Assembly: GCA_025350695.1 (NCBI GenBank) | Contig: JANXXI010000100.1 | Location: 1-44,405 of the forward strand | Origin: Acidobacteriota bacterium | GTDB taxonomy: Bacteria; Acidobacteriota; Terriglobia; Bryobacterales; Bryobacteraceae | Direction: 5' to 3' | Length of the DNA: 44,405 nucleotides | Shown here: positions 27,901 to 29,993 of the stretch, piece after piece | Numbering within the stretch: position 1 is the stretch's first letter | How the letters are laid out: each line of letters begins with the position of its first letter | Position numbers and translations under genes: made by a program | Notes under the pieces: model-generated | Database searches by the model: none | What the model was told of the DNA's origin: nothing | Seen by the model: the letters and a program-made list of their open reading frames with translations, nothing else

Positions 27901-28959
27901 ATGAAAGCAGCCATCGTCATATCCCTTCTAAGCCCTCTCCTGCTGGCCCAGGTTAAACCGAGCGAGGCCTCGACATTTGCAGCCAAGTTGGGACCAGCTA
28001 TTGGCGCCAAGGCTCCTATCCTTGAGGTTAAAGATAATGTCGGGAGAGCGCAATCATTCACGTCCCTCCGCGGACCCAAGGGACTTATCCTCCTCTTCGT
28101 CCGTTCGGCCGATTGGTGACCTTACTGTAAATCCCAGCTGGTCGAGCTGGAAGAATGGTTGCCTGAAGTGAAGAAGCGGGGCTACGGAGTGGCCTCTGTA
28201 AGTTACGATTCAATCGAGGTTTTGAAGAACTTCGCGGATCGGAAGAAGCTGACCTATCCTTTGTTGTCTGATCCGGATTCGAAGATGATCAAAGCTTTTG
28301 GGATACTGAACGAAGGACCCAAGACGGGATTCGCAGTTGGTATTCCTCACCCTGGTATCTTCATGCTCAATGCCGCAGGAATGGTGGAAGCCAAGTTTTT
28401 CGAAGAAGATTACCGCGAGCGAATTACCATTTCAGCCTTACTATCCAACCAATTGGGGAAGCCGGGATTACAAGCCGGTGAACAAGTGGAGGGTAAGAAT
28501 GCCCGGGTCACTCCGAAAGCGAGCAGTTTGACGGCACGCACGGGGCAGCACATCGTTTTGAGCTTAGAGGTTGAACTTCCGAAGGGCATTCACGCTTACG
28601 CACCTGGTGCGCCGGAAGAGTACATACCCGTCGATTGGAAGTCAGAGCCGAATGAGGCTTACCGGTTGGGACCTTTAATTACGCCTGAGCCTAGACGCCT
28701 CAAAGTCGGCGGTGAAACCGTCCCCGTCCCGGTCTTTGAAGGTACGTTTACTCTTAAGCGGGAGTTAATCCCTGGCGCCCAACCCAAATTGAAGGCAGCG
28801 ACTGACAAACAGGGCAACTTCAAGGTTCCCGTTGCGTTTCGGTATCAGGTTTGTTCAGACCGCCAATGTTTTCCGCCACAAACGGTAAATGTAAACTGGA
28901 CATTTCGAGCAGAGCAATTAGAGTCCGAGCGAGTTCCGGCGGAACTCCGCAGGAAGTAA
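27901..28959 (+). CDS. Predicted selenoprotein: secreted UxxC redoxin fused to a DsbD-alpha-like domain
   Basis: One frame of 353 codons interrupted only by TGA at 28117-28119 (codon 73). Read as selenocysteine it gives RSADW-U-PYCKSQLVELE, an AhpC/TSA-type redoxin active site in which UxxC (U73, C76) replaces CxxC. The first 16 residues form a signal peptide (MKAAIVISLLSPLLLA). The redoxin domain spans about 28-190, and PHPGIFMLNAAGMVEAKFF continues the fold after the TGA. Residues about 210-345 match the N-terminal alpha domain of DsbD, with its Cys pair in YQVCSDRQCFPP. Predicted role: envelope thiol/peroxide reduction or electron relay. If not recoded, the gene would be a nonsense pseudogene; the SECIS-like hairpin and intact downstream frame argue against that. 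Confidence 0.82.
28117..28150 (+). promoter_or_regulatory. UGA codon with bacterial SECIS-like hairpin
   Basis: CCAGCT (28134-28139) pairs perfectly with AGCTGG (28145-28150) around the 5-nt loop GGTCG. The loop starts 20 nt after the UGA, within the range known for bacterial SECIS elements, and opens with GGU. From memory, the E. coli fdhF element has the loop GGUCU recognised by SelB. A weaker lower helix (UGACC with GGUUG, 28117-28121 with 28157-28161) could extend it. All bases are also coding. Confidence 0.75.
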
Positions 28960-28976: not shown

Positions 28977-29993
28977 TTGGAATCGCTCTATTGGGTAATG
29001 AGTTGGCTCTGCCACCGCAAGTGCGTTCACTGTTATGAAGATAGGTTTCGCCCGTATTACGGCGCCGAATTGGCAGCCGTCGTCACCGAGGCGGAAACCA
29101 ATTTCCGGGCGATCATATCGAATCTTCCGGCGCAAATGTCGTACCTCGACGCAGCCGATGGTCTTGCTAGGAAACGGGGGCGCATCATTCTCGCCGGTGG
29201 CGAAATCCTTCTTGAACCAGTCCGTAAGACTGTTTTGTACCCCGCTCTTGATCTTCTTTATGACAAGTACAAAGACCAGGGCGGCGTGGAGCTTATTGTC
29301 CAGACTACCGGCGATATCCTTTCCACCCAGATTGTCGAAGATCTCGTAAAATACCATGTCAACGTGATTTCGATTTCCGGCATCGATGAATTTCATCAAG
29401 GGCTTGAGGAAGAGTCAGACCGGGAAGCTCTGCGGGCGAAAATTACGGCAATGTGCGATGCTAACGGCGTACATCATTTCCCTCTGAACGCCGGGCAAAG
29501 ACCTTTCGAGCCAGGCCGCTATTTCCACTTCTTCGGCGCGACTAAAGGGTCCTGGATCGGCAAGATCTGGCCGCGCGGCCGAGCCCATCAAAACGAACTC
29601 TCCACGGCCACATTGGCTGATAACTTTTGCAACGCGTGGTCTGGCGGCCTCAACTTCTTGGATACCGCCCACGGGGGTAGCGAGGTATCTATCGAGCCAA
29701 ATGGCAACGTCTATCCTTGTTGCATGAAAACCAAGAAGGCGATAGGGAACTTGCTCACTGAATCACTCGATTCGATTCTGGCCCGGCGCCGCGGCGACCC
29801 TGTGTATGAGGCAATTTCAATGGGCCACCCCGAACGAATGGGAATCGGTCACGGCTGGAGCGTTGAAAAGTTTTACGAGGCATCGACAACCACTTTGCCT
29901 TCCGGTAAGTCCTACCAGAATCTGTGCATAGGCTGTGATAAATTTCATGATGAAGTGTTAGGAACGGGCGGTTTACTTATCAACCCAAAATAG
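28977..29993 (+). CDS. Radical SAM protein with SPASM-like C-terminal cysteines
   Basis: A protein of about 338 residues. The radical SAM cluster motif is CHRKCVHC (C-x3-C-x2-C, C12, C16, C19), preceded by the expected beta-strand (YWVMSWL). GGEILLEP is the SAM-binding GGE motif. The C-terminus has NGNVYPCCMKTKKAIGNL and CIGCDKFH, resembling a SPASM auxiliary cluster domain. TTG at 28977 is preferred: AAAGGAAAG lies about 8 nt upstream; ATG at 28998 would truncate the strand. It starts 17 nt after the selenoprotein stop, so one transcript is likely. Substrate unknown; peptide modification is the usual job of SPASM enzymes. Its end overlaps tsaB on the other strand by 21 nt. Confidence 0.85.
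   Translation: MESLYWVMSWLCHRKCVHCYEDRFRPYYGAELAAVVTEAETNFRAIISNLPAQMSYLDAADGLARKRGRIILAGGEILLEPVRKTVLYPALDLLYDKYKDQGGVELIVQTTGDILSTQIVEDLVKYHVNVISISGIDEFHQGLEEESDREALRAKITAMCDANGVHHFPLNAGQRPFEPGRYFHFFGATKGSWIGKIWPRGRAHQNELSTATLADNFCNAWSGGLNFLDTAHGGSEVSIEPNGNVYPCCMKTKKAIGNLLTESLDSILARRRGDPVYEAISMGHPERMGIGHGWSVEKFYEASTTTLPSGKSYQNLCIGCDKFHDEVLGTGGLLINPK

Follow-up and report, generated by a model that had tools for sequence, protein, structure and literature searches.

A predicted envelope selenoprotein family of Acidobacteriota joining a UxxC redoxin domain to a DsbD-alpha-like domain

Selenoproteins of the peroxiredoxin-like (Prx-like) type with selenocysteine (Sec) in a UxxC motif are known. 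A 2026 review tabulates 119 selenoprotein families and subfamilies, and its table includes UxxC Prx-like and redoxin families as well as a rhodanese/DsbD fusion-like protein (PMC13188914). The Prx-like thiol:disulfide oxidoreductases (PF00578, UxxC/UxxU), as characterized there, likewise carry Sec as the first residue of UxxC in an AhpC-TSA domain (PMC13188914). Going by the description of the WP_010940744.1 family, these proteins consist of a single PF00578 domain, whereas 41/41 members of the family reported here also match a DsbD-alpha model. The redoxin family selenoproteins (PF08534, UxxC; HEU0032618.1) also contain a redoxin domain with UxxC, as far as the review describes them (PMC13188914), and probably correspond to Prx-like 3 of a 2008 ocean survey. 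In that survey, Prx-like 3 is described as a fusion with a second domain (Unknown_3) that holds three conserved Cys, a CxxC among them (PMC2398784); compared by this description, our family differs in having two invariant Cys in a C-x4-C arrangement. TsoB (rhodanese/DsbD fusion-like, NF045694, UxxxxU) is likewise described with a DsbD-like part, and its UxxxxU spacing equals that of C-x4-C. TsoB as outlined in the review is, however, a rhodanese protein with two Sec in UxxxxU, whereas here the redoxin carries Sec and the C-x4-C residues are plain Cys (PMC13188914). NF045694 was not among the NCBIfam matches of the protein studied here or of the 41 family members.

The locus lies in a stretch of 44,405 nucleotides of an Acidobacteriota genome (GCA_025350695.1, contig JANXXI010000100.1, Bryobacteraceae), referred to below in its full length as the window. 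Its product shares with ResA/TlpA oxidoreductases a redoxin domain and an aligned CxxC (WCPHC in the solved ResA, an entry that we believe to be an engineered variant), but those enzymes have Cys where the present family has Sec, and the DsbD-alpha-like domain is extra. The ResA model NF002854 gave 40 bits on the window protein vs. a cut-off of 170. The second domain resembles the alpha domain of DsbD (PF11412) in scoring above the Pfam threshold, in having a Cys pair near its C terminus and in having a free relative in the genome; in DsbD this domain is joined to the DsbD membrane domain, whereas here it is joined to a Sec redoxin. Among the NCBIfam models SelL_rel_redox, WAxxUGC_long, PrxU and ResA, the window protein reached 47 bits at best, and the cut-offs of the matched models are all at least 120; three other members also stayed below the cut-offs (best 57 bits). 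A redoxin/DsbD fusion is absent from the 119-family table (PMC13188914), and our literature search (acidobacterial selenoproteins, UxxC redoxins and DsbD fusions; mainly open-access articles, without supplements) recognized none. An initial annotation of the window, made from the sequence, had called the protein a type not known as described, and these searches agree with it. Thus the redoxin/DsbD-alpha make-up, which defines a very well supported selenoprotein family, was not found described; the nearest families were compared by description, and an older member may have passed unnoticed.

Positions 27901-28959 on the plus strand form one reading frame, as the initial annotation had proposed, running from ATG 27901 through 352 codons to the TAA at 28957-28959, with a sole in-frame TGA at codon 73 (28117-28119). 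The motif around this codon is RSADW-U-PYCK, and codon 73 takes the first position of U73-P-Y-C76. Frame, Pfam matches and homologue alignments together point to a coding sequence of 352 residues plus TAA with a leader, a UxxC redoxin domain and a DsbD-alpha-like domain. We put the probability that the codon-73 UGA is read as selenocysteine at about 0.97. That the gene product is a selenoprotein with the redoxin and DsbD-alpha-like two-domain make-up is predicted from the sequence with high confidence, a judgement that leaves aside the electron relay considered below. The table-11 open reading frame (ORF) list (at least 80 aa) represents this gene by a 266-aa piece alone, with its start at TTG 28159, a truncation of the kind foreseen for gene callers. 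Since callers that treat TGA as a stop split the protein, an enzyme present in 46/101 near genomes is easily overlooked.

The 266-aa ORF is also what would be expected if the locus were a pseudogene, contained an error of sequencing or assembly, or comprised two distinct genes. We consider this extremely improbable: the same TGA occurs in many genomes, invariant residues lie on either side of it, and the TGA and a complete downstream hairpin (described below) occur together. Sequencing error was rejected on the recurrence of the TGA in 46/101 genomes, and a pseudogene on its conservation together with the hairpin. Elsewhere in the window there is no TGA with at least 70 open codons before and at least 270 after it; the case against a chance TGA rests on the same TGA being kept in homologues. 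A changed genetic code, with UGA read as Trp, Gly or Cys, would equally leave the frame open. This too has a negligible probability, because TGA ends 10 of 38 mechanically chosen long ORFs (at least 140 aa) in the window, codon 73 is only TGA, TGC or TGT (106-locus pool and wider draw, see below), and a tRNA-Sec with anticodon loop CUUCAAA is present. An alternative code was accordingly discarded, TGA being an ordinary stop in the window of a genome that has a tRNA-Sec.

To follow codon 73 among relatives we used a set of 101 genomes, the source genome and 100 relatives out to class. In 46/101 genomes (the source genome included) a homologue matched over nearly its full length and had a single TGA; two genomes that carry the TGA form in two pieces (G090 and G097) are counted among the 55 without it. 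Contigs were further scanned with two patterns, FxRSADWCP and, without codon 73, [YF]CKxQLV[EQ]L. This gave 546 stretches encoding a relative, the best 80 of which were kept and form part of a pool of 106 non-redundant loci with the motif (identical 150-nt stretches merged; the related-subfamily and partial matches L068, L069 and L072-L076 left out of the locus counts). Codon 73 in the pool is TGA in 99/106 loci and TGC in 7/106, so that the Cys homologues anticipated at residue 73 do exist. The best 80 of the 546 divide into 75 TGA and 5 TGC; as they were ranked by similarity to a TGA query, the TGA share may be over-stated, and the 75 include one locus (L123, RTADWUPYC) that missed the motif and is outside the pool of 106. 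By record title, 78 of these best 80 are acidobacterial and 2 are Acidimicrobiia, the latter apparently corresponding to a genome (G031) placed in the window's own family. In a phylum-wide draw, 60/396 genomes matched at E ≤ 1e-30 across 22 family labels, a figure that takes in partial and sister-subfamily matches.

Residues R68 to K77 (bar residue 75), C318 and C323 are invariant in a 24-member alignment, and in a 41-member alignment the invariant Cys/Sec columns are 73, 76, 318 and 323 only. Downstream of the TGA, four close pairs show purifying selection, with dN and dS of 0.019/0.104, 0.034/0.213, 0.014/0.250 and 0.052/0.329; between the window gene and the relative closest to it, dN in this part is 0.159 and dS was not computable. 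When charged tRNA-Sec is in short supply, any Sec-UGA can end translation. The 72-residue stub made at low selenium might thus matter in itself, for instance through mRNA decay or as a regulatory product, as termination at a Sec-UGA under such shortage would allow. Such a selenium-dependent switch seems very improbable to us given the purifying selection past the TGA in the four close pairs and the 7/106 loci with TGC, which have no stop there.

TGA was also seen in related groups. A sister subfamily with the motif RSAVWUPYCRTQLVELQ (L068, L069, L183-L185) has TGA at the same place, and a five-pair hairpin is complete in 5/5 of its loci. In another redoxin group, found in relatives (L074, L075 and L076), TGA occupies the first Cys position of the motif RGYWUP[YF]C; two of these loci, L074 and L075, have all five hairpin pairs, and L076 does not.

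Downstream of the TGA the mRNA of the window gene can form a candidate SECIS hairpin (28134-28150, plus strand), with a stem of 28134-28139 paired to 28145-28150 and the loop GGUCG at 28140-28144. The 6-bp stem starts 14 nt past the TGA and the 5-nt loop 20 nt past it. Bacterial SECIS elements are modelled with a loop of 3-9 nt with an early G, a stem of 4-16 bp and a spacing of 16-37 nt in the review, and the window hairpin agrees with this model (PMC13188914). A 60-nt stretch with the hairpin folds at -17 kcal/mol, and 8/200 shuffles were equally low. A scan of the window against Rfam at gathering thresholds gave 0 matches, which carries no weight because bacterial SECIS elements are diverse, according to the review (PMC13188914).

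Comparison of homologues supports the hairpin. Across 90 distinct sequences 98.0% of the stem cells are paired, and when the partners are slid along, pairing falls to 7-49%. Cells changed on both sides number 54 vs. 18.8 in shuffles, and 0/500 shuffles reach 54; covariation measures that count pairs or types gave no clear excess (50 and 108 of 500 shuffles equal). RNAalifold recovered the same six pairs. The main covarying pair is formed by the Gln79 wobble base and the first base of Leu83, at both of which the changes are synonymous; compensatory synonymous changes at one hairpin pair are found in 34/90 sequences. The Gln79/Leu83 codons are CAG/CTG in 55 loci, CAA/TTG in 37 and mixed in 5 (97/99 loci; Fisher 4e-21), and the best p among the other 144 Gln x Leu column pairs is 3e-4. 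Parsimony mapping onto a FastTree tree gave 12 branches with changes at both of these positions, 4 with a change at only the first and 4 at only the second. The pair between the first base of Leu80 and the third base of residue 82 shows two changes, each on both sides. The outer pair (columns 18-34) is unpaired in 8/90 sequences, and on the tree it underwent one-sided change 19 times and both-sided change twice.

The five inner pairs are complete in 96/99 TGA forms vs. 0/7 TGC forms. Synonymous-codon shuffles retained the five-pair hairpin in 587/2000 cases (29%), which indicates that part of the hairpin is due to the protein sequence. The wider draw provided 20 more loci for a check, three of which (L167, L168 and L172) repeat L129, L149 and L154, and one of which (L174) has no motif in its stretch. 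In the remaining 16 the full hairpin is present in 12/12 TGA forms (3 from the sister subfamily), and 4/4 TGC/TGT forms are without it. With a SECIS in its Sec forms and no complete one in its Cys forms, the family is well suited to studies of Sec/Cys exchange. Within the loop (28140-28144), the third positions of codons Leu80 and Val81 often change together across the family, mostly as GGUC or CGUG; 7 branches change both and 24 change one, and hairpin pairing between the two bases is impossible. These co-changing bases are possibly a feature recognized by SelB.

The machinery for Sec insertion is encoded in the source genome. We found selA (contig C264, 493 bits), selB (C212, 371 bits), selD (C313, 366 bits) and a tRNA-Sec (C355, 66.6 bits, anticodon loop CUUCAAA); the latter is selC, and the four genes named in the initial annotation as a check are thus all present. 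The selD gene (L082 on contig C313) also contains an in-frame TGA, within the motif UASK, from which SelD looks like a selenoprotein itself. ARAGORN detected no tRNA in the window, the tRNA-Sec being on another contig. For tRNA-Sec we applied a limit of 58 bits of our own, because other tRNAs pass the 47 of Rfam (5/14 control genomes exceed 47). All three of selA, selB and tRNA-Sec occur in 41 of the 46 genomes that contain a near-full-length TGA form; 4 of the 46 have two of these, 1 has one and 0 have none. Among the 55 genomes without that form 8 lack all three, one of them (G007) having sub-cut-off split pieces of selA and selB.

For the wider draw, 18/60 matching genomes were followed for selA and tRNA-Sec. 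In three Cys-form genomes (G386, G159 and G186) no selA passes the cut-off, and tRNA-Sec scores at best 46.9, 47.9 and 50.4 bits, values that other tRNAs also attain. A further two (G490 and G481) have the Cys form despite the presence of both selA and tRNA-Sec. Of the 13 TGA-bearing genomes, 2 (G438 and G323) have no selA over the cut-off and a tRNA-Sec of 72.8 bits in both, and 3 (G459, G407 and G214) have selA and a tRNA-Sec of only 56.9, 52.7 and 48.9 bits, respectively.

The predicted protein begins with a hydrophobic N terminus that is a putative signal peptide at about residues 1-24 (27901-27972, plus strand). A 10-residue stretch with mean hydropathy >1.6 precedes the domain in 90/106 members (with script-chosen starts). 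By this crude hydropathy rule the protein is probably exported, and the signal peptide noted earlier is likely on the same rule.

The AhpC-TSA/redoxin domain covers residues 34-164 (28000-28392, plus strand; PF00578, E 1.5e-26), and the match crosses the TGA without a shift, as had been noted from the sequence. AhpC-TSA, Redoxin and DsbD_N all match 41/41 members at E ≤ 0.001. An AlphaFold model of the whole protein has a mean pLDDT of 90.2 and superimposes on AhpE/Bcp structures with Z about 20 and rmsd 2.1-2.6 over about 150 residues (~29-187). Cys76 (28126-28128), the proposed Sec partner, is invariant in the 24- and 41-member alignments, as is Pro151 in GIPHPG (28351-28353), which may be the cis-Pro of a thioredoxin-type thiol-disulfide oxidoreductase. 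In HMM alignments with the solved ResA, the first Cys of CxxC falls on U73 and the second on C76; with the solved AhpE and Bcp, the peroxidatic Cys falls on C76 and the Thr/Ser of TxxC on U73. Sec thus stands in for the attacking Cys in a CxxC of the ResA type rather than for the peroxidatic one. The initial annotation had placed Sec at the peroxidatic/attacking Cys; the attacking Cys holds in the ResA-type sense, and the peroxidatic Cys corresponds to C76. A PF00578 domain together with U73-P-Y-C76 is the combination that describes the Prx-like UxxC group. The motif of Sec peroxiredoxins is named PxxxTxxU in the review (PMC13188914), and here the place of the Pro in PxxxTxxC is taken by Arg68 (by alignment) or Ser69 (by count).

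The nearest solved folds among the matches listed are the peroxiredoxins AhpE, Bcp and PrxQ (Z about 20), so peroxide stays among the possible substrates. One could accordingly picture a Sec-dependent envelope peroxidase in which Sec73 or Cys76 meets peroxide and the DsbD-alpha-like domain is a dedicated reductant; Cys76 at the place of the peroxidatic Cys of AhpE and Bcp fits this. The sequence has, however, U-P-Y-C instead of TxxC, the Pro of PxxxTxxC is absent, and the invariant Pro of GIPxP seems to resemble a thiol-disulfide cis-Pro more. We regard a peroxidase as rather unlikely, and thiol-disulfide substrates, not peroxide, are somewhat favored.

The DsbD-alpha-like domain, residues 207-329 (28519-28887, plus strand), is matched by PF11412 (DsbD_N) in the window protein with E 7.4e-8 and 32.9 bits vs. 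a gathering score of 25. The fusion to such a domain, pointed out in the first reading of the sequence, was thus recovered in 41/41 members scanned. Its two Cys, C318-x4-C323 (28852-28869), are both invariant in the 24- and 41-member alignments. Modelled alone without an alignment, the second domain gave a pLDDT of 44, and the 50 fold-search matches listed cover mainly the redoxin part; its kinship to DsbD hence rests on sequence. The same genome encodes a complete DsbD, composed of DsbD_N, DsbD_TM and a thioredoxin-like part. On another contig (C119, L077, 5907-7390) two redoxins with plain CxxC are followed by a small free DsbD_N protein, which shares 28% identity with the second domain (E 2e-10, a single comparison). 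The selenoprotein thus resembles a fused counterpart of this unfused redoxin-redoxin-DsbD_N row.

We propose the following mechanism, for which the decoding step has computational support. SelB and tRNA-Sec(UCA), aided by the SECIS hairpin, would decode UGA73 as selenocysteine, placing Sec73 where ResA/TlpA-type enzymes have the attacking Cys of CxxC, with Cys76 as its partner. By analogy to family chemistry, the selenolate would attack an oxidized envelope substrate, a disulfide or a peroxide, and a Se-S bond with Cys76 would be formed and then reduced. Electrons could reach the Sec site from C318-x4-C323 in the same chain, and the DsbD-alpha-like domain could in turn be recharged by the membrane reductase DsbD of the genome. 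The overall order would be DsbD to C318/C323 to U73-C76 to the envelope substrate, in which order, substrate and export are all presumed. Domain identity and gene arrangement suggest electron input via the DsbD-alpha-like domain at roughly even odds. Most likely the protein is an exported thiol-disulfide or peroxide reductase that would be recharged by DsbD through its own DsbD-alpha-like domain. More tentatively, and with a chance a little short of even, this may represent an acidobacterial envelope pathway from DsbD via a fused DsbD-alpha domain to a Sec site, spread over many lineages, in which Sec and Cys have been swapped with loss of the SECIS, also where the Sec machinery seems absent. 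If real, it would place selenium use in the envelope of many Acidobacteriota, and electron flow from DsbD to a selenoenzyme could be tested directly with the fusion.

The gene neighborhood was analyzed by clustering ORFs around 53 non-redundant loci and the window (54 loci), 50/53 of the former holding at least 2 kb after the codon. No general operon partner was found among the 54 clustered loci. In the window, a radical SAM/SPASM gene (28977-29993, plus strand; SPASM over the cut-off, Radical_SAM below it) has its likely start ~17 bp past the selenoprotein stop. A relative of this gene is nearby in only 8/54 loci (window included), which makes the link a loose one. A neighbor in 12/54 loci is presumably tsaB.
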